In this document: positions 13,063 through 40,020 of the stretch, in pieces
Numbering within the stretch: the first letter of the stretch is position 1
Layout of the letters: each line of letters begins with the position of its first letter
DNA from: Ruminococcus sp.
GTDB taxonomy: Bacteria; Bacillota; Clostridia; Oscillospirales; Ruminococcaceae
Direction of reading: 5' to 3'
NCBI RefSeq assembly: GCF_024692365.1
Contig: NZ_JAILMR010000086.1
Location: 1-64,000 of the forward strand
Length of the DNA stretch: 64,000 nt
Notes under the pieces: model-generated
Told to the model about the DNA's origin: nothing
Databases searched by the model: none
The model's input: the letters and a program-made list of their open reading frames with translations, nothing else
Made by a program: the position numbers and the translations under genes

Positions 13063-13795
13063 AAACTTTTACTAACCCGCTATGCTTTTTTTCAAGGTCA
13101 TTCTTTATTGCAGCAGGGTTTCTCAAAATAGTATCTGGATCATAAACAAAACAATATATCTTTTCGCACTCGGGATGAGACTGATACTTTTCAATATCAA
13201 CGATAAGTTCCTCACTAAGTTTTTTATCAGTCATCGAATCTCGCGTCTTTTTCACCTCAATAACTGTTTTGATCTCGGGCAAGAAGAAATCTATTCTTAA
13301 CGAACCACCTGCATACGATGGTGTCCATTCTTCCGATCGTACATCATCATAATAGAGCGACAAAATAGAGCGCAATAAATCTTGAACATCATATTCATCA
13401 TTAATGCACAGTGTTTCCCTGCCATCATGACGACGCGAAAGCTGAACAACAACTTTTCTAAACCGAGTAAATATACGTTCAAGCTCATTTATACAATCAT
13501 AGTCTACATTATTGTCGTAATCCATAAGATAGCCCTCCAGATATGTTACTGCAACTTTTAAGCCTTCACGACAAGCTTGTATGTAGTCATCGGCTGTTGT
13601 CATTTCACTCAATAATAATGGCGAAAAAGTAATTTGATCAAACCGCTTTGCTTCATATTCATCATATGCCTTTATAACAAACTTCTTACATCGTCTTCTC
13701 CAAGAAGCTAACTCTTTATTTTCTATATCAATGTCTTTTTGTTGCAGGCGTTTATTATCTACTATTAGTTTCTTTAATTCTTCTATTTCAGTCAT
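13049..13795 (-). CDS. PD-(D/E)XK nuclease-domain protein
   Basis: A 248-residue protein. The C-terminal half has a complete PD-(D/E)XK signature: DVQDLLRSILSLYYDDVRSE (helix with acidic residue), then RIDFFLPEIKTVIEVKKTR with Asp169, Glu180 and Lys182, followed by a helix and a final strand (IYCFVYDPD). This arrangement is typical of small restriction-like nuclease domains attached to defence operons. The N-terminal 120 residues are helical with an early coiled coil (residues 3-50). First gene of the operon, overlapping the DUF262 gene by 14 bases. Predicted to cut DNA when licensed by the partners. Confidence 0.75.
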   Translation of the reverse strand: MTEIEELKKLIVDNKRLQQKDIDIENKELASWRRRCKKFVIKAYDEYEAKRFDQITFSPLLLSEMTTADDYIQACREGLKVAVTYLEGYLMDYDNNVDYDCINELERIFTRFRKVVVQLSRRHDGRETLCINDEYDVQDLLRSILSLYYDDVRSEEWTPSYAGGSLRIDFFLPEIKTVIEVKKTRDSMTDKKLSEELIVDIEKYQSHPECEKIYCFVYDPDTILRNPAAIKNDLEKKHSGLVKVFVES

Positions 13796-13862
13796 TTAAT
13801 CCTCCAGATAATAAAGCTTTAATAGCATAATTCAAGAGAACATCGTCCTACAGCAATCAAGG

Positions 13863-15752: not shown

Positions 15753-15764
15753 ATTTCGACATCC

Positions 15765-16844: not shown

Positions 16845-16879
16845 ATTAACCTCCTAAAACTAACAATATTTTTTTATAA

Positions 16880-18109
16880 TTAGTAACGGATAAGTTCATT
16901 AAATACGGTTATTGCATACTTGTCTGTCATTCCAGATATGTAATCTATTATCGCTTGTGCATATGTTAGTTTATCATTTAATGATCCATATATTTTTTCG
17001 TTAATATAGCCACGAATGTCTCTTTTGACATCAATTTCAAATGATGTGTATTTTGAAAGATGATCAAGAAAATCCTCAATTAATATGTTGTAAAAGTCTT
17101 TCATTTTTTTAAGATTTCTGATAGTTTTCTTATTATCACTATCATAAGCATTAATTAGCGTATCATAAATGCTCCTTATGATTAAAGAAGCATATTTGCG
17201 ATAAACATTGAACTTCTTATTCTTATATATATAATCAGTATTATATTTTTTAATTTCGTTCAACATTTCATTATATTCGTCATTTAATCTTATGCCTGTA
17301 TCCGGAGTACTGTTTTCACAGATGCTAATAATAAAATCATGTATTATTACAGTTGTATTTACTGCTGTTTCACCATATTTTTTTGCTATTTGACGCAATT
17401 TCCTAATGTCATGATTGCTTATGAAATTTAAACGCATGGCATCCTCAATATCACGTCCCAGATAAGCTATTTTATCTGCAATCTTAACAACACAACCTTC
17501 CCATGTGTATGCTTGAAATTGACCAGAAGTGTTAAACTCATTCAAATCTATTATTTCTTTTCTTGGCTTAATTCCATTTTCATCCACTTCTCCACAGTGA
17601 GAAATGATTCCATCTCTTACTGCATAAGTTAGGTCAAGGTTGCGATGATTTCCTTTATCATCTTCAAGTAATTCAAGTTTATCAATCATCCTTAAGCTGT
17701 TTCTTTCATGCCAAAAATTATCCAATCCGTTTTCATTTCTAATCTTTGTTAATTCAACTTCACCTTCATGGCCAAACGGTGCATGTCCAAGATCATGTCC
17801 CATTGCAATTGCTCTGGTCAGATCAACATTCAATCCTAGATAATTTGCTATTGTACAACTTACGGATTCAACGTGTTGAACGTGTTCCATTCTTGTGCAG
17901 ATGTGATCATTGTCAATATTAAAAAACACTTGTGTTTTGTGTTTTAATCTTCTATATGCAAGAGAATGTAAAATACGTGTATAATCACGTTCATATGGAG
18001 AACGTATATCATCCTTTCTTGTATATAACATATTGGGTCTTTCTATATGATTTTTCCAATCGAGATTTCTTTCCGTTGATGCAACTTCTGCAAATAGATT
18101 AGGTTTCAT
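16880..18109 (-). CDS. dGTPase-like deoxynucleotide triphosphohydrolase (HD domain)
   Basis: A 409-residue HD-domain phosphohydrolase of the dGTPase family, which splits dNTPs into deoxynucleoside and triphosphate. N-terminal family motif SPYERDYTRILHSLAYRRLKHKTQVF (37-62); metal ligands His76 (RMEHVQHV), His105-Asp106 (MGHDLGHAPFGHEGE) and the later Asp in VKIADKIAYLGRDIEDA. Length is normal. Housekeeping dgt genes exist, but here it sits among restriction genes in a mobile element, and dGTPases are known defence proteins that deplete dNTPs on infection. A defence role is therefore likely but inferred. Confidence 0.88.
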   Translation of the reverse strand: MKPNLFAEVASTERNLDWKNHIERPNMLYTRKDDIRSPYERDYTRILHSLAYRRLKHKTQVFFNIDNDHICTRMEHVQHVESVSCTIANYLGLNVDLTRAIAMGHDLGHAPFGHEGEVELTKIRNENGLDNFWHERNSLRMIDKLELLEDDKGNHRNLDLTYAVRDGIISHCGEVDENGIKPRKEIIDLNEFNTSGQFQAYTWEGCVVKIADKIAYLGRDIEDAMRLNFISNHDIRKLRQIAKKYGETAVNTTVIIHDFIISICENSTPDTGIRLNDEYNEMLNEIKKYNTDYIYKNKKFNVYRKYASLIIRSIYDTLINAYDSDNKKTIRNLKKMKDFYNILIEDFLDHLSKYTSFEIDVKRDIRGYINEKIYGSLNDKLTYAQAIIDYISGMTDKYAITVFNELIRY

Positions 18110-18252
18110 TAATAATATCCCCTTTCAAAGAAAAACGATTATTAATCTATTTAACTTTTCATTATTCTACCATCTTTATGCATTTTTCGTAAACTTAGTA
18201 TTCTCTTAAAGTGCAGGAATAGTAACCTCATTCCTAATCACTTACTTCTCAA

Positions 18253-18870
18253 CTATTTTATCAGCGTACCCGTTATTATAGGTACTTCTCCGGGGTTAAT
18301 AAATGTTTTTGTTTTTAATTCCGATATTAGATCATCAAATTCCGATGTATCGGCTGCTATTATCCTGTTAAGCCCAAGAAGTGATCCGTCATTCAGCTTC
18401 TGCTTTACAGTATCAACTTCACTTGATTGCAGGGATATGAGGTAGTTTTCGGCATTACGATGAACATATTTAAGAGCAACTGCCTCAAGATCGGCTTGCT
18501 TGTATCTTTCTCGCAAACTTGTTTTTATGCTTATACCGATAGGTGATCTTTTTTCCTCTTTGAATAAGACAATATCAAAATCAACATTAGGTACAAAAGT
18601 CACTTTTGCTTGTAGAAACATTGGCAAAATTCCCTCTCGATATAAACATGAGGCAATTATAGTTTCAAAAATCTTACCATTTAATGATTGTGTTCTTTCA
18701 GCTTTGGGGCAATTTGTTTCATAATTGTTCCAACAATGTTTTACATAGTCATGTGGAGTTGCCGTTTTTATAGTTCTAAAGTCAGTAGAAATATAGTTTA
18801 TAAACGCTTGATATGTTTTATTCCTTTTGCATATATGAGTTGATATTAAAATATCCGACGATTTAGCCAT
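18253..18870 (-). CDS. Putative type II restriction endonuclease (PD-(D/E)XK)
   Basis: A 205-residue protein overlapping the start-proximal methyltransferase gene end by eight bases. NGKIFETIIASCLYREGILP is a typical restriction-enzyme N-terminal helix with an acidic residue, and VDFDIVLFKEEKRSPIGISIKTSLRERYKQADLEA carries Asp...Ser-Ile-Lys of a PD-(D/E)XK site, followed by the helix with Gln/Glu. The size and its coupling to a cytosine methyltransferase make it the restriction partner of that enzyme. I do not recognise the specificity family. Confidence 0.7.
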   Translation of the reverse strand: MAKSSDILISTHICKRNKTYQAFINYISTDFRTIKTATPHDYVKHCWNNYETNCPKAERTQSLNGKIFETIIASCLYREGILPMFLQAKVTFVPNVDFDIVLFKEEKRSPIGISIKTSLRERYKQADLEAVALKYVHRNAENYLISLQSSEVDTVKQKLNDGSLLGLNRIIAADTSEFDDLISELKTKTFINPGEVPIITGTLIK

Positions 18871-19996
18871 TTTTATTCCCCTCCAGTATAAAAAAACATT
18901 CCCTCATAAACTTAGCCATTTCCTCAACAGCCGGGACAGTAACAGCATTGCCGAACTGCTTATACTTCGAACCGTCTGCCATCTTTTCGGGGAAACTGAA
19001 TTTATCTTCACCTGTTTCCTTATCAACAAACGCATAATTTATAAAGCCCTGAAGCTTTCCCCATTCTCTCGGAGTCATAACACGAATACCCCTATCGTTA
19101 AGAGGTGTATGCTTTGAAGGATATATCTTTCCTGCTACACCTTCTTTGGGATCAACAACGAGATTACGTTCCTTACCCGAGCCGCCTGTTGCAAGCAACG
19201 CACTTGATACAGGCGATTCGATTTCGGGAAGATTTACGATCTTATATCCAAAACCGTTGCCCTTGCTTTCATGCCTTGCTCTATGTCTTTCAAGAGTTGC
19301 AACATATCCTTCTGAAAGGAAATATTTGTCATCGGCATTCATTTCCAAAAGGTCATTTAGGTCTTTATACAGCTTTTCTTTGCGCTCGGTAGGTAAAGAA
19401 TTAGGTAACATATCAACAGCATCACCGAAACGCTTTCTGCTAAAGCCCATAATATATACTCTCGGTCTGTTCTGAGGAACACCGAAATTACGGGAGTTGC
19501 GAACAAAACTTCTGGGATCGTATACTAATTCGCCCTTATCATCTTTAGTGACACCGATCACTTTATAATCCAGATCATTAACAAGAACATCTATTATTGT
19601 CGCAAAGGTCTTTCCTTTTTGGTGTGTGATGAGGTTATCAACATTTTCAAGCATGAATGCTTTTGGGTCTGTTCTGCTGATTATCTCGGCAATATCAAAG
19701 AAAAGAGTACCTCTTGTTTTATCATGAAAGCCTTCTTCTTTTCCCGCTCTGCTGAAAGGCTGACACGGGAAACCTGCAAGCAGTACATCATATTCCGTCT
19801 TAGCCACCAAATCCTTAAACTCGTCCGTAGTAATATCATTCATAGGGTCATCACCGTAAAGGTGCTTGTATGTAAGACAGGCATTTTTATCGATCTCGGC
19901 AGAAAGCACGTTCTCGAATTCTTTCGCAAGCTCGTATCCGCGCCTTATTCCTCCGATGCCTGCGCATAAATCTATCATTTTATACTTTCTGCTCAT
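18863..19996 (-). CDS. DNA cytosine-5 methyltransferase (first)
   Basis: A 377-residue C5-methyltransferase. Motif I is IDLCAGIGGIRRG (8-20); motif IV has Pro77-Cys78-Gln79 in AGFPCQPFSRAG, the catalytic cysteine; ENV motif VI is in FMLENVDNL; motif VIII is GVPQNRPRVYI; motif X is SKYKQFGNAVTVPA. The target-recognition region contains RHESKGNGFGY, seen in several restriction-modification C5 enzymes. It is coupled to the small restriction gene downstream by an 8-base overlap. It modifies cytosine in a short site to protect self DNA. Confidence 0.93.
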   Translation of the reverse strand: MSRKYKMIDLCAGIGGIRRGYELAKEFENVLSAEIDKNACLTYKHLYGDDPMNDITTDEFKDLVAKTEYDVLLAGFPCQPFSRAGKEEGFHDKTRGTLFFDIAEIISRTDPKAFMLENVDNLITHQKGKTFATIIDVLVNDLDYKVIGVTKDDKGELVYDPRSFVRNSRNFGVPQNRPRVYIMGFSRKRFGDAVDMLPNSLPTERKEKLYKDLNDLLEMNADDKYFLSEGYVATLERHRARHESKGNGFGYKIVNLPEIESPVSSALLATGGSGKERNLVVDPKEGVAGKIYPSKHTPLNDRGIRVMTPREWGKLQGFINYAFVDKETGEDKFSFPEKMADGSKYKQFGNAVTVPAVEEMAKFMRECFFILEGNKNG

Positions 19997-20011
19997 TATG
20001 ATTAACTCCTC

Positions 20012-20956
20012 TTAAAAGACTTTAATAATGTTTTCTGCAATGCGTTTAACAACAGGAACGCACACCGTATTGCCGCACTGTTTGTATGCGGCTTCTATTG
20101 GAATACCCTTGAATACAAAATCATTTGGGAATCCTTGCAACGCAAGGCATTCATACGGTGTCAGCTTGCGGATCCCGAAATCATCTCTTATGACGGGAAC
20201 TCTGTCATGATATGTTCCCATGTTTGCTTTCAGCGTCGGTGACATAACGTATTTTCGCATAGCCACACCGCTGTCATCTATTCGATAAATACCCGTTTTA
20301 TCGGGAATCTTTCTGTTCAGTGTATCATAATACCGATTACCGGGATTGTAGTAATAATCATCGTGATGCTTCTTCGTTCTGTCAAGAATATCTTCGATAC
20401 TCACCGTCAGCGGTATCTCTCCCGGAAAAGAAAAAGCATTCAGCATATCGTAATCGGAAAACGCTGCGATAAAAGTTCTGCTGCGTTCCTGCGGTATGTT
20501 TCCGTGAGTGCAGGCATTCTGAATACTGTACTTGACCTCATACCCAAATTCGGCAAGCGTATTGAATATGGTGATAAATGTCTTACCGTTGTCATGATAG
20601 ATGAGGTTCTTTACATTCTCAAGCAAAATAACTTTCGGTTTCAGAACATCGACTATCCTTGCAATTTCAAAGAACAGATTGCCCCTCGGGTCTTTGAAAC
20701 CACGCTGATAACCCATGACGGAAAAACTCTGACACGGGAAACCAGCAATAAGAACATCGCATTTCGGTATATTACTTGCGTTTACAGTTGAGATGTCTGC
20801 TTCAACAAGTACATTACCGCCAAAATTGTTTCTGTAAGTAACACAGGCATTATGATCTTTCTCATTAGCCCATATTACCTCAAAACCCGCCTGAATGAAT
20901 CCGAGGTCAATGCCCCCAATTCCTGAAAACAGGCTAACAACCGTAGGTTTACTCAT
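20012..20956 (-). CDS. DNA cytosine-5 methyltransferase (second)
   Basis: A 314-residue C5-methyltransferase with motif I SLFSGIGGIDLGF (8-20), motif IV GFPCQSFSVMG with Cys75, ENV in ILLENVKNL, motif VIII NIPQERSRTFI and motif X AAYKQCGNTVCVPV. It overlaps the vsr gene by eight bases, and ends 15 bases before the next methyltransferase start. Overlap with vsr means this enzyme makes the 5-methylcytosine whose deamination Vsr repairs. It may be the HpaII partner or a partner of the small restriction enzyme; sequence alone does not settle which. Confidence 0.92.
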   Translation of the reverse strand: MSKPTVVSLFSGIGGIDLGFIQAGFEVIWANEKDHNACVTYRNNFGGNVLVEADISTVNASNIPKCDVLIAGFPCQSFSVMGYQRGFKDPRGNLFFEIARIVDVLKPKVILLENVKNLIYHDNGKTFITIFNTLAEFGYEVKYSIQNACTHGNIPQERSRTFIAAFSDYDMLNAFSFPGEIPLTVSIEDILDRTKKHHDDYYYNPGNRYYDTLNRKIPDKTGIYRIDDSGVAMRKYVMSPTLKANMGTYHDRVPVIRDDFGIRKLTPYECLALQGFPNDFVFKGIPIEAAYKQCGNTVCVPVVKRIAENIIKVF

Positions 20957-27017: not shown

Positions 27018-27449
27018 TCAAAAGCTCTTTTTTATTCTAAACAAAGTAATGCCATCAACATTTGTATCCTGCAATTCAAATATCTCATCAACTGTCAACT
27101 GCAATCCTGTCGGATTTCTGCCGATAATGATATACTGATTCTTATCGTCAAAAGCAATATATCTGCGCATATCGTCATCAAGGAGAATATCAGCATTGTC
27201 GATCACAAACAGCTTGCCTTTAGATTGCTTTATTGAACCTTTATATACCTTTCTATTCTGGTCAAGATAATTGAAACACCGAACATCCTTGTTCTCTGCT
27301 GCATATTCCTGCAAGAAGGAGTATAGCGCAGATTTTCCGATCCCTGAATCGCCGCTGATAAACGTTACATTATAATCCAGCTTAAGATCGACCTCAAAAG
27401 ATGTGTGCTTTGTTTTTATATAATCAGTTACGATCGGTTTGATCTTCAT
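27018..27449 (-). CDS. Small P-loop ATPase of the DUF4869 module
   Basis: A 143-residue P-loop protein. FISGDSGIGKSALYSFL gives Walker A at 33-40; KGKLFVIDNADILLDDDMRRYI gives a Walker B-like acidic strand at 78-92; NQYIIIGRNPTGLQLTVDEIFEL follows as a sensor-like strand. It is only about half the size of a normal AAA domain, with no lid. It overlaps the DUF4869-like gene by 26 bases, so the two are coupled. Small ATPases of this shape beside DUF4869 genes are familiar in Clostridia, but I know of no characterised function. Confidence 0.72.
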   Translation of the reverse strand: MKIKPIVTDYIKTKHTSFEVDLKLDYNVTFISGDSGIGKSALYSFLQEYAAENKDVRCFNYLDQNRKVYKGSIKQSKGKLFVIDNADILLDDDMRRYIAFDDKNQYIIIGRNPTGLQLTVDEIFELQDTNVDGITLFRIKKSF

Positions 27450-27879
27450 CTGTCCACCACTCCTTCAAAGCATCGTATGAATCTATCTCCCTAACACCTT
27501 TTTTGTCACATACTTTGACCTTCTGCATATCAAAAGAAATAAAAGGATAACCGCAGTAAACATTACCATGTGGCAGCGCATAGATCACATCAAGCGCGTT
27601 ATCCCCACATTCGCAAATATCGAATATCTTGTCGGGATTATACATGATATTTAAAGCTGTTTTGCAGCCGGTCGATAGCTTGTCGATATTCAAAACAGTA
27701 CCGTTGAACCTTGAACTGATCGTATACTTGCTTATCATTTTTGAATTATCGATCTTTTCAATTATTTCAGCTGCCTTATCATCGAGCATTTCGACAGTAT
27801 ATTTGTTGAAATAAATGTCATTCAGCGTCACAAGCTCCATACCATTCTTGGAAGGCTTCTTTTTATATACAGTAATCAT
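27424..27879 (-). CDS. DUF4869-like protein
   Basis: A 151-residue protein. LNIDKLSTGCKTALNIMYNPDKIFDICECGDNALDVIYALP resembles the conserved core of DUF4869 proteins (GxKTLxLMYxxPxxIFNxxxCGDN). The N-terminal part (ITVYKKKPSKNGMELVTLNDIYFNKYTVEMLDD) matches their opening strands. Function unknown. It overlaps genes on both sides, so the three genes form one translational unit. Confidence 0.65.
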   Translation of the reverse strand: MITVYKKKPSKNGMELVTLNDIYFNKYTVEMLDDKAAEIIEKIDNSKMISKYTISSRFNGTVLNIDKLSTGCKTALNIMYNPDKIFDICECGDNALDVIYALPHGNVYCGYPFISFDMQKVKVCDKKGVREIDSYDALKEWWTDEDQTDRN

Positions 27880-28568
27880 ATCAATCCAGCCTCCTTAAAT
27901 GCATCTTTCAGAACCGAGCGCACCAATATCTGATCCATTTTTTCATCTACCGACAGTCTGTCATTATCCAGGCCGCAAATATCGTCAGTTTGTCTTTCGT
28001 CCCACTCACAACAGCTGTTTATAAAGCATTGACCTACCTTCGATTTATCGGTCTCAAATCCTGTGTTTCTCGTTATATTAAAAAGCATCACAGCTGCGAG
28101 TTGTTCCTGATTCTTTTTGTCTGAGAAGCCATACTTAGTTTTGAATTCATTCAGTTCTTCCGCAGTTCCGCCATTAGTTATGAGCTCGATATAAGTTTTT
28201 CTTGCATCAAGTAGCTGACTGCGCTTATCTTTAAGATCGTCATGCTCTGCAAACACCCAATTTTCCATCATCTCAAATGAAAGAAGAGCAAACTCAAAAG
28301 AATGGATACTTATTTTCCTAACATTATTCTTGACGGATATAGTTTTGTTTAAACGTGTGATCTCACGAAGAACATCGGGATTGTCTACTGCACTATCTAT
28401 CAGTATGTAGTACACGTTATCGTCATCTTCAATTTGATTTACAGCTTTGTTAAGCCTTGTATTATTGATTTTTGTTTCAACAATAAAGTCAGGATACAGC
28501 GACTTGAACATCACATTCCAAAACTGATATCCGGAACCTGAGTCTTCGCACCAGACGTAATTACTCAC
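27876..28568 (-). CDS. Unknown protein, possibly TOPRIM-like, first gene of the DUF4869 operon
   Basis: A 230-residue protein. It opens MSNYVWCEDSGSGYQFWNVMF, and then has NVYYILIDSAVDNPDVLREI: an early acidic residue (Glu8) followed by a helix, and a hydrophobic strand ending in Asp58 with Asp62 nearby. This order recalls TOPRIM or DUF4435-type folds, but the DxD is not classical, so the assignment is tentative. The rest is helical with two Cys (FINSCCEWDERQTDDICGLD). The gene is preceded by the shared promoter and hairpin leader and by AAGGAGTG. Confidence 0.55.
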   Translation of the reverse strand: MSNYVWCEDSGSGYQFWNVMFKSLYPDFIVETKINNTRLNKAVNQIEDDDNVYYILIDSAVDNPDVLREITRLNKTISVKNNVRKISIHSFEFALLSFEMMENWVFAEHDDLKDKRSQLLDARKTYIELITNGGTAEELNEFKTKYGFSDKKNQEQLAAVMLFNITRNTGFETDKSKVGQCFINSCCEWDERQTDDICGLDNDRLSVDEKMDQILVRSVLKDAFKEAGLI

Positions 28569-28594
28569 TTGATCTCACTCCTTTGTGCTACCCC

Positions 28595-28680
28595 TTCTCC
28601 GGTTTATTAGACTGAAATAATAACCGAAGAGAGAATTTTTACATCTTTCTTATTATACAATAACACAGGGTATGTGTCAA
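28595..28680 (-). promoter_or_regulatory. Shared promoter, operator and hairpin leader (copy 1)
   Basis: Read on the minus strand: TTGACA (28675-28680), 17-base spacer holding ACACA-n5-TGTGT, TATAAT (28652-28657), then GAAAGATGT, then a hairpin whose apical part is TTATTATTTCAGTC (28605-28625) closed by a CGGTT/AACCG stem. The hairpin ends just before the ribosome binding site of the 230-residue gene. The same arrangement occurs at 34045-34140. Confidence 0.8.
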
Positions 28681-28821
28681 GATAAACAACAATATATAAT
28701 CATATAGGGTTGTAATCAATTGTCAACATATTCCATTTATTATTGTGCTGGAATGCCTTTTGCTATGCATTAGTATTTAATTCTTTTTTCTGTACGAAAC
28801 AGGGAAAACGCCAATTGATAT
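28681..28821. other. Spacer between the two RT-region operons
   Basis: About 140 AT-rich bases after the 896-residue gene and before promoter copy 1. No strong terminator hairpin was seen, so some read-through from the RT operon into the second operon is possible. Confidence 0.35.
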
Positions 28822-31512
28822 TCACTTCAATTCTTCTCTTTTATTGAATAACGCAACTATTTTCTCAGATTTAATAAGCTCCTTATTCATTATATTACAT
28901 TTTGGCTGGCTATATTCCCTGACAACCGCATAACAATCTATTTTTATATACCCTTCATATTTGCCATAAATCTCTCTAATATCTTTTAAATCATTTTCAG
29001 TTATTCGGCTGTTTTCGTTCAGAGTCTTTAATATTATGGGAGCATTTATCTTGTTATTATATAATCCGTTTTTATTCAGTTCGGATACATATTTACGAAG
29101 CTTTTCAGCTCCTGCTTCACCGCCGTAAATACAATATATCTCGATCTGACATTTATTCTTCTTAAAAATATCAAGTATAGATACTTTAGATACTTTATCA
29201 CCGACATCAGTTCTGTATTTCATTATCTTACTTTCCTTATCTGCGGGCAGTCCTTTGCCCGATGTCTCATCAGGCAGATAGCACCTCAGAGTATCTTTAG
29301 TTGCATTTCCGCACTGCATAAGGTCAAATACAAATGCTATTTTTTCTATTAGCTGCTTGCCGATATAATACTTATCATTTACCTCTTGGATATTGGGGTC
29401 ATACCAGTAATTTATCTCTCTGTGCGAAGAACTGGTTATGTATTTATTATAGAAATAAAACAGTGAGCTTTGCTGACTTGAACGGTCCTTTGGTACATAC
29501 AGTACATTTTCTTCTTTGAATTCACTTCTCTCCGATATAAAAGAGTAATCCAGTATTTCATGTTTTCTCAGCAGTTTAAGCCATTTTGTTATTTTGTCCG
29601 GATCTAACTTCAATAACAATAAATGGTTTGCTATCCTGTATATTGCCACATCTCTTAAAGGAACAATTTTGTGTTTCTCTGTAAATGCTTCTGAAAAGCT
29701 TTTCATCATTTCATAAATATCAACAATATCATTATTACATATTGTTTTTGTACTAATAATATCAGATCGTAAAGCATTCTTGTTTAATCTTTGTAACTTC
29801 CACTTTATAATACCATAAGTAGTATCATCGTTAGTTCCTATGTAAAGATGTTTCTTTTCTTTATCTATGAATACTTTATATTCTTTGTTTTCAAGACTGT
29901 CTTTATCTATTTCCTCATTAAGAGACTCAATATTGTAATCAGAATAATCTTCATTGCTCAAAACATCAGTTATACTATACTTCTTTTCGCCATATTTAAA
30001 ATTCTTTATGGTTACAGTGCAAATATCAAGATTTCTTAGCACTTCATTAAAATTTATTTTTTCTAATAACGATTCGTTTATAGCATAAGGAATGAAAAAG
30101 TGACCATCCCATATTGCATCCGGGAATTTTACATCATCATAAATATACTCAAGCTGCTTGTTATATACATCTATAAATTTGTTTAAGCATTTGTTAGGAT
30201 CATCACATTTATCGAGCCAATTCTCCAGAAGCTTGTTAAACGACAGGTTGCTGTCTTTTATTCCCATGTCTGATATATCAACGTTTTTAATAGCTTCAAG
30301 TTCCGCAAGCATACCCAGATTTACTATATCGATTCCATTTCCGCACAATTTCTTTAACCCGTACCGTGTAAGATATTCTCTCGTTGCTTCAATTTTGCTG
30401 CGTGATGCGTCACCTTCAAGCAGGATATATTCATCATTTATTGAATACGGATCAACGGGAAAAACACTATCTTTGACCGTAAAAAACGAATTATCCATAA
30501 AAATGTTATAATACTTTCGGTTATATATGAACTCTAAGAAATTATGCAGTTTATTTGAAAATGATTCTTGTGCTATTTCGTTACTGAAAGAAAAATAATT
30601 CATATCCGAAATATTGAATACTTTTGAAATATCATATTCAACAAAATAGGCTATTGCATTGCCTTTGGTGTTTGATTCCTTTTCCACTTGCCTGATCTTG
30701 TATTTTTCGGCAATGTACGAAGAAATCTGTTCAGGAACATCAAAATATGATTTTCTGATATTACGTACAAGCACTCTCTTTTCCTTTGGGTCATAAAGCA
30801 CAAGTACACCATTTTTTTCATAGTTGGTTTTCCAGTCATCTCCATACAGACGCCTTGAACCATTCAAAAGATATTCGATGAACCTGATATTTTTCTCTTT
30901 AAGCTTATTTAAAAGAGTATCTTTATCCGTCAACTTTGAATTGTAAGTAAATAACTGCAAAGCCAGCATAATGACCTGTATGTTTTTTACAGAATTGATA
31001 TGTTCATCAAGGTCATCATCTTCGATTATATGTGACAATAACATACTTATCGGGAAATAATCTCTGTCATTCTCATCGGTAAATGACAGTATTATACATA
31101 TTTTTTCCAGGTTATCAATAAGCTCTTCAAACTTCTTTTGAGCATATTCATCAATGGTAACAGAATAGGAACTGTCTTTATATTTTAAGCGGAGACGAAG
31201 CAGAAATAAAAGTGTTTCAAGTTCACCCTTATCAGTGATAGTATTATCTGAAACGTTGCTGGGGATCATTCCGCCTATATTATCCAAAGCCTTTATGACT
31301 CCTGATCGTATAATTTCATCAGGCTCCTTTATATTTGCTGCCGCACGACAGAATAAAGAAGCTACATCGGCTTCATTTCCTGTAATATCGTTAACATTTA
31401 TATTGCATATAAAGTTGAGTGCATCGGTTATTACTTTATTCCGGTTGCTTTTATCGACACAATAAAGATTATTATTATGCTTTTTTAATTCTGTATTAAA
31501 CGCCTCGTTCAT
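28822..31512 (-). CDS. Large unknown protein encoded with the primase-RT gene
   Basis: An 896-residue protein I cannot assign. It overlaps the primase-RT gene by four bases (ATGA), the strongest sign that the two work together. No Walker motifs, membrane segments or signal peptide. The N-terminal 250 residues are helical; the middle is mixed alpha/beta with a charged stretch near 560-620; the C-terminal 150 residues contain KCQIEIYCIYGGEAGAEKLRKYVSELN, which resembles a Rossmann-like strand-loop-helix. It could bind nucleic acid, act as the effector, or be a structural partner of the polymerase. Confidence 0.8.
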   Translation of the reverse strand: MNEAFNTELKKHNNNLYCVDKSNRNKVITDALNFICNINVNDITGNEADVASLFCRAAANIKEPDEIIRSGVIKALDNIGGMIPSNVSDNTITDKGELETLLFLLRLRLKYKDSSYSVTIDEYAQKKFEELIDNLEKICIILSFTDENDRDYFPISMLLSHIIEDDDLDEHINSVKNIQVIMLALQLFTYNSKLTDKDTLLNKLKEKNIRFIEYLLNGSRRLYGDDWKTNYEKNGVLVLYDPKEKRVLVRNIRKSYFDVPEQISSYIAEKYKIRQVEKESNTKGNAIAYFVEYDISKVFNISDMNYFSFSNEIAQESFSNKLHNFLEFIYNRKYYNIFMDNSFFTVKDSVFPVDPYSINDEYILLEGDASRSKIEATREYLTRYGLKKLCGNGIDIVNLGMLAELEAIKNVDISDMGIKDSNLSFNKLLENWLDKCDDPNKCLNKFIDVYNKQLEYIYDDVKFPDAIWDGHFFIPYAINESLLEKINFNEVLRNLDICTVTIKNFKYGEKKYSITDVLSNEDYSDYNIESLNEEIDKDSLENKEYKVFIDKEKKHLYIGTNDDTTYGIIKWKLQRLNKNALRSDIISTKTICNNDIVDIYEMMKSFSEAFTEKHKIVPLRDVAIYRIANHLLLLKLDPDKITKWLKLLRKHEILDYSFISERSEFKEENVLYVPKDRSSQQSSLFYFYNKYITSSSHREINYWYDPNIQEVNDKYYIGKQLIEKIAFVFDLMQCGNATKDTLRCYLPDETSGKGLPADKESKIMKYRTDVGDKVSKVSILDIFKKNKCQIEIYCIYGGEAGAEKLRKYVSELNKNGLYNNKINAPIILKTLNENSRITENDLKDIREIYGKYEGYIKIDCYAVVREYSQPKCNIMNKELIKSEKIVALFNKREELK

Positions 31513-34025
31513 TTGCTGTATTCCTCCTTATCTCTGAGTGATAAGAGTAAGCCTCTGTCTTCAATACTTTCAATATCCTGCAAATTATCACACAATCTGA
31601 CAACATAGTCTGCTATAATAGGCTGAAACTTTTTATTCTCCACATCTTTAGCCACAGCATAATAAAGCGAAGAAAGAAAGCACGAAAAATTCAGTGTATT
31701 GATTGGAATAAGATCGTATAACTTTTTATTTGTAAATATCTGAAGGACATCACTGTTATCAAAAATATATTGGTAAAAATATGAAAAGCCGCTTCCTCTG
31801 CCTATGGACGACTTTACTATCAGATCGGCATATTGTAGAAAACAAAAGTATTTGGCATTGTCATTTGTATAAATTGAAAAATAATATGATATATCTGATA
31901 ATTTGAAGCCGCCTTTACTGTCAATTACTTCATTAACTTTTCGTTTTACATATTCTGTTTCCAATAAATAAGAATAGTCACTTTTTTTCAAACCATATTG
32001 AAACTGTCCTTCTCTTAGTATCATATCTTTTTGTTTTTCGCTCAATTTTGATATTTTTCCATATACAAGACTTTTTTCTTCATTTACATACAAACCGTTT
32101 TCAAGGAATGTATCTTTTATTTTTTTAAACAGCTCACGGCCATCAAATGAATCATCATAAAAAATAACTATATCATCAACATACCTATACACTTTTATCT
32201 CGTTTTCGTTGCCTTCTAATGCTCCGAGTATTCTTTCTATGATAATTCCCAAGAAGATCTCAGCGATTATTCTTGCATATGCAGGTCCCTGAGGAACGCC
32301 TATCCTGGTCTCACCGTTGATTTTTTTCATAAGTGCTTCATTGTAGCATATGAGCCAACTCAATATATTTTCTTCCTCACAGCTGAGTTGTTCCTTCATC
32401 GTCTTATATACACTCATGAAGTCTATACTGTCGTAAAAATGCCTGATATCCAATGTCATGACATTATAATCATCATACATTCCTGTTAATATATACTTAC
32501 TGATAGCTGACAAATAATTTCCCCATGAATTATACCAATGGAAAAACATATCGCTCTTAGAAAGATAATTCGGATTATAACTGAAAGATTTTATGTTTTT
32601 ATTCAGATCATAGAATAAGTTTAATGCTAAATGAGATGTCAGGACTCTGTCGTGAGCTCCTAATGTTATCATTTTTCTTGTTTTGTTCTCACTCTCGATT
32701 CGCTCAAATATATAGAACGGTTCAGGTTCAGCAGAAACTTTATCCCCTCGCTTTATGCTGTTCAGCTTTTCGTTTATTTTATTGGTATCAAAGTTTGTCA
32801 TGTTTTTAAGGTCAAGAAAAACCGATACCACAGGGACTTCATCATTTGAAAACAAATATGCTGATTCTTTTTTCAGAGTTAAGCTGCTGTTGCAAATAAG
32901 CTCCCTTTCATTTTCTTTAACATTAAAAATTTCGATATTTTTATCTGATTTTTCTTTAAGATACTGTAAAGCTGTTTGATCGGGGTCGAGCCCTTCTTCC
33001 ATATCAATATTGTATAAATGATAAAGATATCTGAATGTTGCAGGATAATATTTGTTGTAGCTTTCGGAGATCTTTTCACGGGTTATTTCTTCCGAAAAGT
33101 CGGAAGTGTATCTGAATAATTCCATAAGAATATTAATGCCGTTAGGTATCTTACCTAATGTTCCAAGCATAACATATCTGTCTTTTGTAAATGGTTCTCC
33201 GTATTCAAATCTTTTAAATATATTTTTATATACTTCTACATTTGAAAGGATCTCTTTTATCTCTGACAGTGTCCAGCTATCTTCTCCGACTGCATAAAAC
33301 TTTTGGTATGCTTTATCAGAAGTCTTGTTTTCTTTTGTTATCCCAAATTTATTCAGAATAGCATTGGTATTATTCGGCTTGAAAGAATCGAGCATTTCCA
33401 ACTGTTTTTCAAAAAAATCAGGACTCTTTTTATTTCCGTTATAGACCCCTTCAAAGAAGAATGATTGTTCTCCGTTCTGATGTACTGAAAGAGGAAGTTT
33501 TACCATGAGTCCTAGTTTATTTCCTTTGCTTGCAGCTGTTTTAGGGAATTCATCCAATCCATATTTGTCTGTATCAAAATTTATACCGGATCTTATTTTG
33601 ATAGCATTCAAAAGGTCATAAGCTGTATTCTTACGAATGTAATCATCAAGTAATATCCACGTATGAATTCCTCTGCGGCCTGAAAACTCGTTTATATATG
33701 AAATACCATTTTCTTCCAAGTACTTACATAAAATCATAGTGCAGTCTTTATATAGACCTAATATATCAGGATCATCCTTGTCTTTACAATCAAAATCAAA
33801 ACATATCCATTTAAGGTATGGATTTTTAAAAAGCTGCTGATAAGTTCCGATTGATGTTCGTTTTTTCAGCATCATGTATATATCATTTTCAGTTAGTCTG
33901 TTATAAACAGTATAATACCTACTGTCTTTTTTTTGAATAGCATACGCATTTTTGTTTACAACAAATAGCTCTAATAGTTTAACCGCAATTATTTTTAAAA
34001 TATCATATGACATATTATACCTCAT
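31509..34025 (-). CDS. Primase-polymerase (AEP) fused to a reverse transcriptase
   Basis: An 838-residue fusion. The N-terminal part is an archaeo-eukaryotic primase domain: WICFDFDCK with the catalytic Asp78-x-Asp80, then SGRRGIHTWIL (116-126) with His, then FPKTAASKGNKLGLMVKLPLSVH (161-183), typical of TOTE-type AEPs. Residues about 250-345 look like a PriCT-type helical module. The C-terminal half is a reverse transcriptase: motif A VMTLDIRHFYDSID with Asp527, motif B GVPQGPAYARIIAE (577-590), motif C YVDD (616-619) and the EKS motif near 651. The RT resembles the defence-associated UG/Abi groups rather than group II introns or retrons. ATG at 34025 follows AAGGAAG; a TTG at 34028 is possible. 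It is preceded by the shared leader. Confidence 0.88.
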   Translation of the reverse strand: MRYNMSYDILKIIAVKLLELFVVNKNAYAIQKKDSRYYTVYNRLTENDIYMMLKKRTSIGTYQQLFKNPYLKWICFDFDCKDKDDPDILGLYKDCTMILCKYLEENGISYINEFSGRRGIHTWILLDDYIRKNTAYDLLNAIKIRSGINFDTDKYGLDEFPKTAASKGNKLGLMVKLPLSVHQNGEQSFFFEGVYNGNKKSPDFFEKQLEMLDSFKPNNTNAILNKFGITKENKTSDKAYQKFYAVGEDSWTLSEIKEILSNVEVYKNIFKRFEYGEPFTKDRYVMLGTLGKIPNGINILMELFRYTSDFSEEITREKISESYNKYYPATFRYLYHLYNIDMEEGLDPDQTALQYLKEKSDKNIEIFNVKENERELICNSSLTLKKESAYLFSNDEVPVVSVFLDLKNMTNFDTNKINEKLNSIKRGDKVSAEPEPFYIFERIESENKTRKMITLGAHDRVLTSHLALNLFYDLNKNIKSFSYNPNYLSKSDMFFHWYNSWGNYLSAISKYILTGMYDDYNVMTLDIRHFYDSIDFMSVYKTMKEQLSCEEENILSWLICYNEALMKKINGETRIGVPQGPAYARIIAEIFLGIIIERILGALEGNENEIKVYRYVDDIVIFYDDSFDGRELFKKIKDTFLENGLYVNEEKSLVYGKISKLSEKQKDMILREGQFQYGLKKSDYSYLLETEYVKRKVNEVIDSKGGFKLSDISYYFSIYTNDNAKYFCFLQYADLIVKSSIGRGSGFSYFYQYIFDNSDVLQIFTNKKLYDLIPINTLNFSCFLSSLYYAVAKDVENKKFQPIIADYVVRLCDNLQDIESIEDRGLLLSLRDKEEYSK

Positions 34026-34044
34026 CAAATTATCTTCCTTGGTT

Positions 34045-34140
34045 CAACCAATTCTCTGGATTATTTGACTGAAATAATAACAGAATTGGTATTTTAACAT
34101 CTTTCATATTATTTATTCAATAACACAAGTTATGTGTCAA
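34045..34140 (-). promoter_or_regulatory. Shared promoter, operator and hairpin leader (copy 2)
   Basis: Minus strand: TTGACA (34135-34140), a 17-base spacer with ACACA-n5-TGTGT, a weaker -10, GAAAGATGTTAAAAT, then CCAATTCT (34082-34089) pairing with AGAATTGG (34048-34055) and an inner ATTATTT/AAATAAT stem around the same TTATTATTTCAGTC apex as copy 1. Outer stems differ in sequence between copies but still pair. Confidence 0.8.
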
Positions 34141-34208
34141 GATTAACAACTATATCCTCAAATTTAAAATCATCGCACTTTTAGATCTTTCATATCAAAC
34201 TTTTATAG

Positions 34209-34859
34209 TTAAAATTCATTTTCCGCTAGATTTTTTGCTTCTATGCATATCTCATCAAGTAAATCTTCGATAGAAAACTTTTGGATTATATTTTTTTGTA
34301 AATCAAACAAAATTAGAATATTTATTGCATCTACGAATAAATATCGAAATGTATTATCATATTTACTTTGAAGTTCAATAATACTTTTCATTATTTCGTC
34401 TAGATCACAATCATCATAGGTAAATTCAGGCTGTGAAAAAACATATACATCCATGTATTTTACAGATCTATATTTTCCGCAATTAATTGCTTTTATTTTT
34501 TTCGTAACAGCACCAATTATATTACTATTTGAATGCCAAAATCCATCTGAATAGCCTATTATTTTCTCACTATCAGGCAGTTTAAGTATTTGCTTTCCGT
34601 TTCTATGAAAAGCCTTCAGTTTTTCAGGATTAACATTTGAAACATCAGAATTAATTAATTCACGTTCAAAATACTTCCTTTCTTTTTTATCTTGTTGATC
34701 TATAGCTCTCGTAACTTCGACACCAATTTCTAGATCATTGGTAATTAAGTCCGGACTTTCAGAACGTATCAGTCTTGAATACTCAGTACTAAACATTTTT
34801 TTCAATGTAATCTGTGCTTTTATCTCATAAAAATCTTTTTCAGTATTATGATTTCCCAT
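34209..34859 (-). CDS. Unknown protein with an EVT-type nuclease-like motif
   Basis: A 216-residue protein. SPDLITNDLEIGVEVTRAID (36-55) gives Asp37 and Glu48-Val-Thr50, a pattern common in variant PD-(D/E)XK proteins in which the usual Lys is replaced. Later parts (YMDVYVFSQPEF, YLFVDAINILILFD) are alternating strands. So it may be a divergent nuclease, or an inactive fold. It stands alone, upstream of the RT leader and downstream of the HEPN gene, both on the same strand. The ribosome binding site (GAGAGAGG) is rather far from the start. Confidence 0.55.
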   Translation of the reverse strand: MGNHNTEKDFYEIKAQITLKKMFSTEYSRLIRSESPDLITNDLEIGVEVTRAIDQQDKKERKYFERELINSDVSNVNPEKLKAFHRNGKQILKLPDSEKIIGYSDGFWHSNSNIIGAVTKKIKAINCGKYRSVKYMDVYVFSQPEFTYDDCDLDEIMKSIIELQSKYDNTFRYLFVDAINILILFDLQKNIIQKFSIEDLLDEICIEAKNLAENEF

Positions 34860-35022
34860 TTATCGTAATAGCCTCTCTCATATATAACTTAATCATAAAT
34901 AATTTAAGGTTATCTGCATTTTCCTTGTCTTCTACTGAAATAGTTCCATCACTTTTGTAGTTGAAGCAACGTATGCTATTATCATCAGCCGCATATTACA
35001 GCAATATATAGAATACTATGCA
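34860..35022. other. Short non-coding gap
   Basis: About 160 AT-rich bases between the HEPN gene and the EVT-motif gene. It contains no visible gene or strong hairpin. Confidence 0.3.
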
Positions 35023-36741
35023 TTAATTGCCTCTTTCATATATTACTTGACCATAATTAACTACGATTCCTTTAAATGCTTTCAATTTTATCGCATTTTT
35101 ACCTTCGTTGAGATATTTTTTCATTTCTTCAAGAAAATAATCATCAAATTTACCACCTCTATATCGTTCTGCGTCATAATAGAATTTATAGGGATAATAT
35201 TTCGTATTATATTTTTCCTTTTCATGTTCTTTATTATAATCATCTTCATAAATTGAATGTGGCTTTTTATCAAAGAAAATCAGATTAACATCATAACCTA
35301 ATCTTTTAATTTTTACCCAATCATTATAATCTAATTCGGGATTGGATAACACTATTCCTATCCAATCATCAAAGTCATCTAAGTTAAACTCATTGTATTT
35401 ATTTTTTTGAATTGTTTTTGCCCAATTATCAAAGTCCTCATCATTTACAGGCTCCGTTTGTTCGTAATCGGTTTCAGAAATCTCTAAAACATCAATGCTT
35501 TTTTCTTCAAGATTAAATGCACCCAGTACTAAATAGAATATCTTAATTGTTTGTATCCTTATTTCATCTATTTCTTCATTCGCATTAATATTGTCTTTAT
35601 GCAAATGATCATTTCTGTACATATCCTTATACTTTAATATTAAACTAGTTATATCCTCCACTAAATGATAGTCTATTAACCACGTATCAGAATCTCGACT
35701 ATTTTTATATAGATAATTAATTAAGTTTCCTAAACAGAAATCAAGAGTACCTAAATTTTTAGAACTAAAAGCAACTCGTTTTATATTATTAGACTTATCA
35801 TTTTTGTCACGTCGTCTAAACTTTTTTCCTGTATCAATCTTTGTCATAATAAGCGTGTAGAGTAGCTGCTCGATTGATTTCAGATAACCAACAACAATGG
35901 CAGTCTTTTCCAGCGCATTAATATAGGAATTGGATTCATAATACCATTCCGAGCTTATAAAACTTTCAGCAAAGCTTGAATTTCCTACCAATGCACGATA
36001 ATAACCTTTATTAATGTAGTTACTGTTGATAATATTTAATGCATTATGATCGTTTTTCATTGACTCAGGGATAATAGAGCTATAATCAAAATCCTTTAAC
36101 ATTAGCATCTTTGCTTTTTTGAACTTAAGCAGTTCATTTTTCGAGGGGATAGAAATCGTAGCATATCCTATTATTTCTACTATATCATGATTTATTTTTT
36201 CAATATATCTTTTGAGATTAGTATATTCATTTTTCCAGAACATATCAAAAAATTCTTCAAGGGTTATCGTCTTGGTATACTCATTATTATCAGATGACAT
36301 TTTAAATGAATAGTTCCCATCAATACTTTCTATCAAAGATACTATATAAACATAATCAAGGTCAGTGTCTTCGATATTATAATTGAAATCAACAGAATAT
36401 GTAAATAAGAAACCAATCATCTTTCCATTAATAATTATAACAAAAGGGATATCATATAATTCAGGAATGTCATCTTCCTCTGAATCATTCGTGCTTTCAA
36501 TATAATCAATAGAACTTTTTTTCATCATCTGCATTATGAGTTTTATAGTCAGTTGTCTAACAATTTTATAAACGAATGGCAATGACATTGAATATGATTC
36601 GGTACGAAAATCAACAAATTTAAATATTCTTCTATCGGAAAGATTTTTAACTTCAAAAGCAAAACTCCAATTATCAATTGTTTCTCTAATATTCTGCATT
36701 ACAGATTTATAGTATAACTCATACAAATCATCAAAAATCAT
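35023..36741 (-). CDS. HEPN-domain protein with RNxxxH motif
   Basis: A 572-residue protein. Around residues 275-415 it carries a HEPN domain: NALEKTAIVVGYLKSIEQLLYTLI as the first helix and KDMYRNDHLHKDNI with Arg376-Asn377-x3-His381, the RNxxxH RNase signature. The N-terminal 200 residues hold alternating strands with an acidic insert (DSEEDDIPELYD) and could be a sensor; the C-terminal 120 residues are acidic and aromatic (DFDDW, DNWAKTIQ). HEPN proteins commonly cut RNA to stop infection; the activity is inferred from the motif. It overlaps the WYL regulator gene by four bases, so they form an operon. Confidence 0.7.
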   Translation of the reverse strand: MIFDDLYELYYKSVMQNIRETIDNWSFAFEVKNLSDRRIFKFVDFRTESYSMSLPFVYKIVRQLTIKLIMQMMKKSSIDYIESTNDSEEDDIPELYDIPFVIIINGKMIGFLFTYSVDFNYNIEDTDLDYVYIVSLIESIDGNYSFKMSSDNNEYTKTITLEEFFDMFWKNEYTNLKRYIEKINHDIVEIIGYATISIPSKNELLKFKKAKMLMLKDFDYSSIIPESMKNDHNALNIINSNYINKGYYRALVGNSSFAESFISSEWYYESNSYINALEKTAIVVGYLKSIEQLLYTLIMTKIDTGKKFRRRDKNDKSNNIKRVAFSSKNLGTLDFCLGNLINYLYKNSRDSDTWLIDYHLVEDITSLILKYKDMYRNDHLHKDNINANEEIDEIRIQTIKIFYLVLGAFNLEEKSIDVLEISETDYEQTEPVNDEDFDNWAKTIQKNKYNEFNLDDFDDWIGIVLSNPELDYNDWVKIKRLGYDVNLIFFDKKPHSIYEDDYNKEHEKEKYNTKYYPYKFYYDAERYRGGKFDDYFLEEMKKYLNEGKNAIKLKAFKGIVVNYGQVIYERGN

Positions 36742-37760
36742 TTGTTATCCTCCTCATCACAATAAGCTTCATAAGCATCCTTATAAAATACCGCAATATC
36801 CTGTTTAAGCGACTCCGGGTACAGGATCATCGCTTCTTTTCCAAATCTCCTGAAGTAGTATTCCAACTGTGTTTTTGAGCAATTGAAATAGTAAATATCA
36901 TTATCTATCAGTTCAACTTGCGGTCTGCCAAAATAGATCCTGTTGTATAGTTTCTGTCCTTTTATAGTAAGCCTTACACCGGTAGTCTCATCATCATTGA
37001 TAGCGTATTGAGCACCATACAATTTCATTCTCTCCAACCGTTCCTTAGTCCTATCATCAATAACTGCAAATCTGCTTCCTTTCTTAGGATCTTTTATTCT
37101 GTTAAGTCTGTATGACCTTGTTTCTATGATTTCATTATTCCCATTCAATTCCGCACAGATAAGATAATTGAACATTTCGTCTTTGCCAACTTGCAAGGCG
37201 TAAGGCACAACCGTATGCAGTGCTTCATTCCATATCGTCGAAAACGATATACTGCGTTTGTTTACTATTGCTTCGGTTATTATGTCATGATTCTTCTTAA
37301 ATACGATTTTTTCACGCTCATAAATCGGCATAGCGCAGTAGCTCATCAGCATTTTGCAGTAATAGCTTGAAATACTTTCAGAACCACCAGCACTGCTATG
37401 TATAAGTTTAACAATAGTCTCAGTAGCATTTGTAGGCTTAAATGAAAGGAAAGGCTTTTTTTTACCCTTGTTTTTACTTATTGGTGGAAGAAAAACATTT
37501 GAAATTATCGCTCGTGCCAGTTCTTCTGCCTGATGATCATTTAAATGATACTCTTTCATTTGTTCAAGAATAAGCGTCATTTTTTTATCGAGCATATCAT
37601 TATAGCAGTTAAAATAATTTTCTACAATCAAGTTGAGTAATCTGTTAATATTAATTGTTCTGCTGTCTTTTTTAAAAAGCTCAAATTGTCTGGCATCACG
37701 TTCTAAGACAGACTTTGTGCTTTCATGGACAGTAATTTTAATTTTCTCAGAATCCGACAT
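36738..37760 (-). CDS. RHH-WYL domain transcription regulator
   Basis: A 340-residue regulator. Residues 1-60 look like a ribbon-helix-helix (KIKITVHESTKSVLERDARQFELFKKDSRTININRLLNLIVENYF). The WYL domain spans about 150-260: ITEAIVNKRSISFSTIWNEALHTVVPYALQVGKDEMFNYLICAELN...ETRSYRLNRIKDPKKGSRF. A C-terminal extension follows. This architecture is that of WYL1 found with Cas13d in Ruminococcus and of other defence regulators that bind nucleic acid or nucleotide ligands. No cas gene is present here. ATG at 37760 is chosen for AAGGTGAT at good spacing. First gene of the HEPN operon. Confidence 0.82.
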   Translation of the reverse strand: MSDSEKIKITVHESTKSVLERDARQFELFKKDSRTININRLLNLIVENYFNCYNDMLDKKMTLILEQMKEYHLNDHQAEELARAIISNVFLPPISKNKGKKKPFLSFKPTNATETIVKLIHSSAGGSESISSYYCKMLMSYCAMPIYEREKIVFKKNHDIITEAIVNKRSISFSTIWNEALHTVVPYALQVGKDEMFNYLICAELNGNNEIIETRSYRLNRIKDPKKGSRFAVIDDRTKERLERMKLYGAQYAINDDETTGVRLTIKGQKLYNRIYFGRPQVELIDNDIYYFNCSKTQLEYYFRRFGKEAMILYPESLKQDIAVFYKDAYEAYCDEEDNK

Positions 37761-37944
37761 TGACATCACCTTTTAATTGACTCCAAAAAGGGGTCTCTAT
37801 TTTTTTGTCTTAGATGCAATTTTCCTTTATTTATGTATAAAAATGGGGTCGTTTGATTTGATAAATTGACAATAGTTTTCTTAAAGAAAATGATGTATAC
37901 TCATATACAGAAGCAACGACTTAGACCAAACAGGAGGTATATTT
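37761..37944. promoter_or_regulatory. Divergent control region of the WYL operon and the small membrane protein
   Basis: Contains TTTTCTT-A-AAGAAAA, a perfect palindrome at 37876-37890, and two direct copies of AAAA(a/t)GGGGTC ending at 37795 and 37850. TTGACA (37866-37871) and TATACT (37896-37901) point toward the plus-strand gene but are 24 bases apart, with the palindrome between them. These are candidate WYL-protein sites. Confidence 0.45.
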
Positions 37945-38399: not shown

Positions 38400-39284
38400 T
38401 TATTTTGTATTTTCCATAGACTGTAGCTCTTCACGGACTTTCATAAGTGAAAATCCAAGTAAATTATGCCCGCTCCATTTGCTCGCATCAAGTCTTTCAG
38501 GTTCATTCAAGCCTTTTCCACAAGCCCATATCGTATCTGTGCGAGCACATTCTACAAGATATGCTTTTTCAGTAGTAAATAGTTTATTCTTTAATTCATC
38601 ATTCTGACTGAATTTTGCTTTTAGTCCGTTTATTGCTATTATTTGACGTGATCCTGCCCACACGTTATTAATATATTCTTTAGCTTGACGACCGATGTGT
38701 TGCTGTTTTTCAGGATACTCTGTTGCAAGTATAGCCTTTGCAGATTCTTCATCACCAAATAGCAAACATTTCTGGTGCATGATGTATTGTTCTGCTGAAG
38801 TATATTTTGTATCGTTAATCTCAAATGGAGAAAAGAACCAGTTGCTTAGGAAGCCAAATGGTTCATCGGGTTTATGAAAGAACACCGCATCAACCTGACG
38901 ATCCGAAATTTTCAACTTTTCTATAGTCAGCTTTTTATCATCAGTACCTTCAACTTGAATATATGCTTCTTTAAGAATTGAAGAGAACGTTAGATATTCT
39001 GACCTATATAATTCGACCATTTCATAGAAGAGCTTTGAAGAATTATACAGTCCAGGTTCTTCACCCCGGATCATGGACATTATCATGGTCATCTGCATTT
39101 TTATACCATTTTCATTGCGATATACATTATCTATCATAATGCATAAATTTACCGCTCTTTTTCTCAGCTTTTCTGAAACGGATCGAATTGCAGATTGCCT
39201 GTCCATCTTATTATTTATGACCTGAATACAGGCATCTATCAGGATAGCTGTTTCATATTTATCCCATGGTATTCTTGCAGCCAT
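38400..39284 (-). CDS. NADAR-domain protein (YbiA/DUF1768 family)
   Basis: A 294-residue protein. The C-terminal half is a NADAR domain: VFFHKPDEPFGFLSNWFFSPFEI, YTSAEQYIMHQKCLLFGD, IAINGLKAKFSQNDELKNKLF, LVECARTDTIWACGKGL and GHNLLGFSLMKVRE are the family landmarks. NADAR proteins handle ADP-ribose/NAD-derived groups and some remove ADP-ribose from guanine in DNA as antitoxins. The N-terminal 120 residues are helical and charged and may be a second domain. ATG at 39284 is preferred because AAGGAAGGA precedes it. It is the last gene of the long dnd-containing operon, 76 bases after the gene before it. Confidence 0.8.
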   Translation of the reverse strand: MAARIPWDKYETAILIDACIQVINNKMDRQSAIRSVSEKLRKRAVNLCIMIDNVYRNENGIKMQMTMIMSMIRGEEPGLYNSSKLFYEMVELYRSEYLTFSSILKEAYIQVEGTDDKKLTIEKLKISDRQVDAVFFHKPDEPFGFLSNWFFSPFEINDTKYTSAEQYIMHQKCLLFGDEESAKAILATEYPEKQQHIGRQAKEYINNVWAGSRQIIAINGLKAKFSQNDELKNKLFTTEKAYLVECARTDTIWACGKGLNEPERLDASKWSGHNLLGFSLMKVREELQSMENTK

Positions 39285-39360
39285 TTGTCTCACGTCCTTC
39301 CTTAAACAAATATATTTCAACTGTGTTTATTAAGTTACAGCTGAAGATATATATTACAGC

Positions 39361-40020
39361 TTAAATGGTGTTTCTAATACTCAGACTAACTTTATCAGCT
39401 ATGTTTTCAGATTTTATCCAATCCAGAATAGAAGGAGTTATGTCTGTTAGAGTAGCTTTTTTGTCACGAACTTTAATCAGAAAATCTCTTATCTCGTCAT
39501 CAAATCTCATTTCTTTCAGAAGAGCATCTGCTTTCTGTCTTGCCTCTTTATAAGAATCTATACTTTCCTGGGTTAAAGGCCACTTCTCACACTTATTAAA
39601 TGCGGTAATGCAACTTCTCACTACATTTGGTGTCGGGTGTACAAGAACAATGATATTAAGTCCATTGATAAGATCGCTGTTATTAGTTCTATAAAATGTT
39701 TCCCACTCCTTTGATATCGCGCCAATAAATGTATCAGACCTGTCTTTGAACTGCGATGGATTCACAGCTTTTGCATCTGAGAAAGTTCTATTTGAGTAAT
39801 CCATTATATATGCAAGTACAGACGAAGTGTTCGTCTGTAGAGAAAAGCTAAAATTCTTTCTAGCAAGAATATACGACCTGAGTGTTGGTGCGAGTCTGTC
39901 TAATGTATCAAAAAACGTTGAATTTCTCTTAGCCAAGTTCTGGTTTTCGTTTTCCTGTTCCTTATTATCCATGACTTCATCTATCAGTCCGATAGTTGAC
40001 TGAATTTTTTCATGTAACAT
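39361..40020 (-). CDS. Unknown helical protein in the dnd-dpd-like operon
   Basis: A 219-residue protein I do not recognise. It is mainly helical, with a Glu/Asn/Gln-rich segment at residues 17-30 and IIVLVHPTPNVVRSCITAF as a hydrophobic strand-helix core near 125. It begins four bases after the stop of the large ATPase gene, so it is part of the same operon, in the position where dpd loci carry further small genes. It could be a partner of the ATPase. No catalytic motif found. Confidence 0.65.
   Translation of the reverse strand: MLHEKIQSTIGLIDEVMDNKEQENENQNLAKRNSTFFDTLDRLAPTLRSYILARKNFSFSLQTNTSSVLAYIMDYSNRTFSDAKAVNPSQFKDRSDTFIGAISKEWETFYRTNNSDLINGLNIIVLVHPTPNVVRSCITAFNKCEKWPLTQESIDSYKEARQKADALLKEMRFDDEIRDFLIKVRDKKATLTDITPSILDWIKSENIADKVSLSIRNTI

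Follow-up and report, generated by a model that had tools for sequence, protein, structure and literature searches.

In a 64,000-nucleotide stretch of a Ruminococcus sp. genome (contig NZ_JAILMR010000086.1; hereafter the window), two overlapping genes encode a primase-polymerase/reverse transcriptase (RT) fusion protein and an 896-residue partner, which probably constitute a split, two-subunit form of the antiphage system DRT7 (UG10). This proposal draws together the match of the RT protein to the UG10 profile, the presence of the partner at all 12 testable loci, its homology by hhalign to the C-terminal half of the single-chain UG10_large proteins, the motifs and predicted folds that the two forms share, their separation by one branch of the RT tree, the defence island in which the pair lies and the chemistry of DRT7 as described in commentary passages. 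At most, what is new here is the two-gene form as a conserved unit and how the partner relates to UG10_large, the class of RT being known. Neither was found in PADLOC, Pfam or the literature searched, a search to which the key papers on DRT7 and UG RTs did not belong.

The reverse transcriptase gene

Pfam finds both an AEP-TOTE domain (residues 39-217, E 5.5e-15) and an RVT_1 domain (residues 523-656, E 1.8e-14) in the 839-residue protein, and the motifs named for them in a sequence-only reading of this DNA are present, in agreement with its claim of a primase and a complete RT in one chain. That reading had also held that the fusion matched no known system, which proved mistaken: the PADLOC model RT_UG10_small (PDLC03747; UG/Abi group 10) spans residues 9-814 (E 1.5e-270), followed by RT_UG10_large (PDLC03746; E 4.1e-135) and then RT_UG17 (E 3.5e-17). 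Since a UG10 profile is the best match, and over the length of the protein, the gene is by this assignment a UG10, that is DRT7, RT, and the primase-RT fusion was already known. The suggested kinship with UG/Abi enzymes, the coupling to a partner and a probably defensive role are borne out. For DRT7 itself, passages in commentaries relay reports, made in preprints, of antiphage activity and protein-primed DNA synthesis.

The catalytic residues of both polymerases are all intact in the window protein, and the loss in most homologues for which the sequence-only reading had allowed is not seen. The RT motif-A aspartate and the VDD are conserved in 33 of 33 aligned RTs, an alignment that leaves out eight loci with cut or broken RT genes, and the primase DxD and the histidine of GxH are conserved in all 32 rows that reach the region (the remaining one, L027, is cut by its contig). 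The third primase motif reads KLPLSVH in the window protein; four UG10_large rows (L025, L037, L049 and L057) have asparagine in place of its histidine. Because the relatives were gathered by an RT motif-B pattern, the conservation of motif B is biased. Three tyrosines present in all 33 RTs (Y391, Y484 and Y532) are candidates for priming, as leads only. The gene starts with a TTG codon, with an ATG immediately after it, and the protein stops 223 residues past YVDD, the C-terminal half being encoded by a separate gene.

The partner and the C-terminal half of UG10_large

As previously noted from the sequence, the start of the partner gene overlaps the RT stop codon by four bases (ATGA); a good ribosome-binding site, AAGGAGG, precedes it inside the end of the RT gene. 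The partner had been described as unrecognised, and it has indeed no match in Pfam (E 0.1), PADLOC (E 10) or PDB sequences (E 1). The same resources yielded nothing usable for the other partners, a PADLOC scan of ten partners giving one weak match (PDC-M15A, E 0.0039), and Pfam, NCBIfam and PDB yielded nothing usable for the fused half of UG10_large. A Foldseek search with the partner model returned no match at E 1e-3, its top rows being mostly kinases. Judged by profile comparison, however, the partner represents no novel type of protein: it is the C-terminal half of UG10_large in detached form. The RT belongs to a described DRT class, one half of the outcome that the sequence-only reading had named as refuting its proposal.

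In the hhalign comparison, a profile of ten partner rows and one of the C-terminal halves of ten UG10_large proteins aligned over 675 co-linear columns (115-862 versus 158-984; 96.8%, E 2.1e-10) and, in the opposite direction, over 626 columns (97.3%), compared with at most 0.9% and E values no better than 0.064 for two reversed and 12 column-shuffled controls. Taken in parts, the N-terminal portion scored 52%, the C-terminal portion 81% and the middle 0.1%, so that the middle is without support by itself. An earlier comparison with nine partner rows aligned 206 columns only. Single sequences are weak against the profile of the C-terminal half (L044 and L019, E 1.6e-9; the window partner, E 9), and the PADLOC UG10_large model leaves the partners unmatched while covering the C-terminal half of L048 at E 1.2e-65.

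A joint alignment of 16 rows places the motifs N-x3-N...R, D-x4-G and R-x5-K in register in both forms; no tyrosine of the C-terminal half is kept at 90%, and Y745, found in 14 of the 16 rows, is a lead only. In addition, models predicted from alignments that share no row have the same three folds in the same order in both forms, with secondary structure agreeing in 63% of 739 aligned pairs, as against at most 45% in 43 shifted controls. Finally, in an RT tree of 33 rows (quick method), a branch with SH-aLRT 100 divides 13 small-form RTs, including that of the window, from 20 large-form RTs; at the level of RT sequence, the split coincides with this one branch. The tree is unrooted and hence does not give the order of fusion and split.

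Two forms among relatives

A scan of a genome collection, described as covering 84,980 species, with the RT motif-B pattern yielded 47 loci; in tblastn searches, 39 of these encode a relative of the window RT and eight do not. Together with a plasmid locus (L003) this makes 40 relatives, to which the window is additional. Thirteen have the small form (L018, L019, L021, L027, L029, L034, L041, L044, L047, L050, L052, L017 and L054), with L017, cut within its RT gene, assigned by the tree, and the broken L054 assigned by its remaining piece and neighbours only. The partner family lies 3' of the RT in 12 of the 14 small-form loci, window included, which are all those testable: L054 shows no partner, and L017 is not assessable because its RT gene is cut. 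Among these 12, the partner is cut by a contig end in L050, in broken pieces in L021 and short in L027. The two frames overlap in ten; L021 has the overlapping ATG with a broken frame, and in L047 the genes lie 28 bp apart. As L017, L019, L044 and L050 are near-identical, the small form represents about ten independent lineages.

The single-chain form, with the same N-terminal primase-RT, is found at 27 loci, in 14 of which the frame runs off the end of the stretch. Ten of the 13 frames closed at both ends are 1,757-1,889 codons long from stop to stop, in contrast to the two genes of the small form; L036 is broken, and L028 (1,126 codons) and L039 (1,147 codons) are short. We rejected the latter two as truly short genes of the large clade, their frames ending at contig edges. 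For L038, whose 1,625-codon frame runs off the end, the profile of the C-terminal half has no match in its genome. Decay of UG10 loci is apparent at L036 and around the L054 locus (stretch L083), with RT genes in short frames, and the L036 genome retains a remnant of the C-terminal half carrying internal stops.

Searches with the partner in 394 genomes of the order, with its profile in 341 of the class, and with the UG10_small profile in 394 of the order and 398 of the phylum gave matches only in the window's own genome. The system is therefore rare, and samples of this kind provide little test of obligate pairing. Plasmid and phage records lack the partner; the RT occurs in no phage record and in one plasmid record, as UG10_large, from Peribacillus. 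Viral contigs contained no relative, none of seven pattern matches there resembling the RT or the partner at better than E 0.05, and an earlier genome scan, based on a two-row alignment and poor peptides, gave 61 stretches and no relative.

No other gene family is common to more than five of the 14 small-form loci. A 311-residue gene lies upstream in the subgroup L017, L019, L044, L050 and L054 (stretches L080, L081, L082, L083 and L050), preceded by a gene of about 600 residues in four of the five, the L050 stretch not extending far enough to include it. Another four families each occur at two small-form loci; one of them lies 3' of the partner (L041 and L021), encoding 330 residues in stretch L074 and two shorter frames in L075.

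Proposed function and alternatives

We propose that the RT protein and its partner assemble into a complex that corresponds to single-chain DRT7 and would make DNA on infection, with the partner acting as scaffold and control. The helical repeats of the partner may grip the polymerase or the DNA that it makes. The phosphoribosyltransferase-like end of the partner, possibly together with the kinase-like part, would be a control module binding nucleotide or phosphoribosyl pyrophosphate (PRPP), not an enzyme; this role is tentative, sensing being favoured over catalysis for the last domain because its loop is only partly PRPP-like. Also speculative is the full picture of an immune DNA polymerase of two subunits, the second being a scaffold that bears a degenerate kinase-like and a phosphoribosyltransferase-like module; this module would sense the level of nucleotides or PRPP and so gate protein-primed synthesis of DNA in infection. 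If such nucleotide gating held, the split clade would make it possible to study synthesis apart from control in vitro. Like the pair proposed here, class 1 UG RTs, for example DRT3b, join an RT to HEAT-like helical repeats, although such enzymes are not known to carry a primase domain or any part resembling a kinase or a phosphoribosyltransferase. The repeats of class 1 (alphaRep) are described in passages of PMC13174585.

It is unlikely that the RT protein is by itself the whole DNA-making enzyme, with the partner maintained next to it as an independent regulator or effector that responds to infection or to the DNA made. Such an arrangement would fit a phosphoribosyltransferase-like fold that, from its predicted model, could be catalytic, and the partners have diverged far enough from the fused half to escape PADLOC; yet the partner family is co-linear with that half in UG10_large, also at the kinase-like and C-terminal motifs, and this favours a single functional unit, whether in cis or in trans. 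A TOTE-type or CRISPR-associated primase-RT system distinct from DRT7 is very improbable. In TOTE conflict systems the primase is accompanied by helicase and nuclease modules, and Pfam detects no helicase or nuclease domain in either protein of the pair, the helicases encoded in the window lying in a cluster at least 10 kb away. The AEP domain does match AEP-TOTE in Pfam and the primase-polymerase chains PDB 7nqf (E 2e-9) and 7nqd (E 2.5e-9), which we take to be CRISPR-associated, but the UG10 profile spans the whole RT protein. Moreover, a limited look for a CRISPR array or Cas1 found neither: no repeat family exceeds three copies at 30 nt or longer within 9-64 kb, and Cas1 is not among the matches listed for 30 window proteins.

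We also considered a larger unit that takes in the gene set downstream, given that both operons are headed by the same leader of about 120 nt, a TTGACA promoter-like element with an embedded ACACA-N5-TGTGT palindrome and then a hairpin. The 3.68-Mb assembly has full copies at these two places only, and its remaining matches span 18-25 bases. Each hairpin folds better than all 200 of its shuffles (z -4.3 and -3.6); the loop is constant, and the stems differ yet pair in both. Taken whole, the leaders show no such advantage over shuffles (z -0.5 and -1.2), and Rfam has no non-coding RNA match at E 0.1 within 27-37 kb. Against a larger unit, blastp (E 1e-4) finds no relative of the set in the stretches compared from the 13 other UG10_small loci, and the leader motifs occur in none of ten loci checked, L073 having one unrelated short palindrome. 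We judge it slightly less probable than an RT acting alone.

A split DRT7 thus remains the preferred reading. The UG10_small model matches the RT protein, and no PADLOC model matches the window partner. The split form suggests that anyone who treats UG10_small as a system of one gene overlooks half of it, so that the RT gene, tested without its partner in a heterologous host, may well give no result. The mechanism of DRT7 is so far known only from preprints, and a natural split form would allow the polymerase half and the C-terminal half to be purified apart, making it testable which of them primes, templates, senses infection or does harm.

Neighbouring genes and the defence island

Table 1. 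Positions of the RT operon, its partner and the adjoining elements in the window
Feature	Position	Strand	Remark
RT operon leader: TTGACACA-N5-TGTGT palindromic promoter-like element and 5' untranslated region hairpin, loop UUUCAGUC	34036..34160	-	
UG10_small reverse transcriptase, 839 residues	31509..34028	-	N-terminal AEP primase-polymerase (~15-315) and RT (~430-680)
Partner, 896 residues; family homologous to the UG10_large C-terminal half	28822..31512	-	
Sub-regions mapped inside the partner gene	31087..31512, 30241..30891, 28897..29562	-	Also compared in the fused form
Second leader copy, upstream of the 27018-28568 gene set	28579..28695	-	80% identical over 120 bases
Three overlapping genes: 230 residues (unrecognised), 151 residues (DUF4869), 143 residues (P-loop)	27018-28568	-	

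Neither plasmids nor a set of 295 genomes yielded a relative of the 230-residue protein downstream. A DUF4869 gene likewise precedes and overlaps a P-loop gene in another genome (L093). The window as a whole is a dense defence island, with all of the following genes on the minus strand. Upstream of the RT operon (34209-37769), a gene for a WYL-like regulator of 343 residues (PADLOC WYL, E 1.3e-10; below the Pfam cut-off) overlaps a 572-residue gene that has no Pfam or PADLOC match, followed by a 216-residue gene. At 40025-61483, DndA, DndC and DndD matches lie beside DpdE-, DpdF- and DpdH-like and type IV restriction-like genes, which looks like a coupling of genes for DNA phosphorothioation with a set of the Dpd type; a NADAR-domain gene (PADLOC PDC-M42C, E 7e-56) and a 219-residue gene stand at the end of that cluster (38400-40020). 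A UvrD-like gene of 1041 residues at 52384-55509, 18 kb from the RT gene, has as its best PADLOC match RTasHel (E 7.8e-35), a helicase model filed under DRT. Further away, 9684-20956 holds NsnA, NsnB and NsnC matches, an AAA-ATPase with OLD-like matches, a type II restriction enzyme, two cytosine methyltransferases and a dGTPase-like gene.
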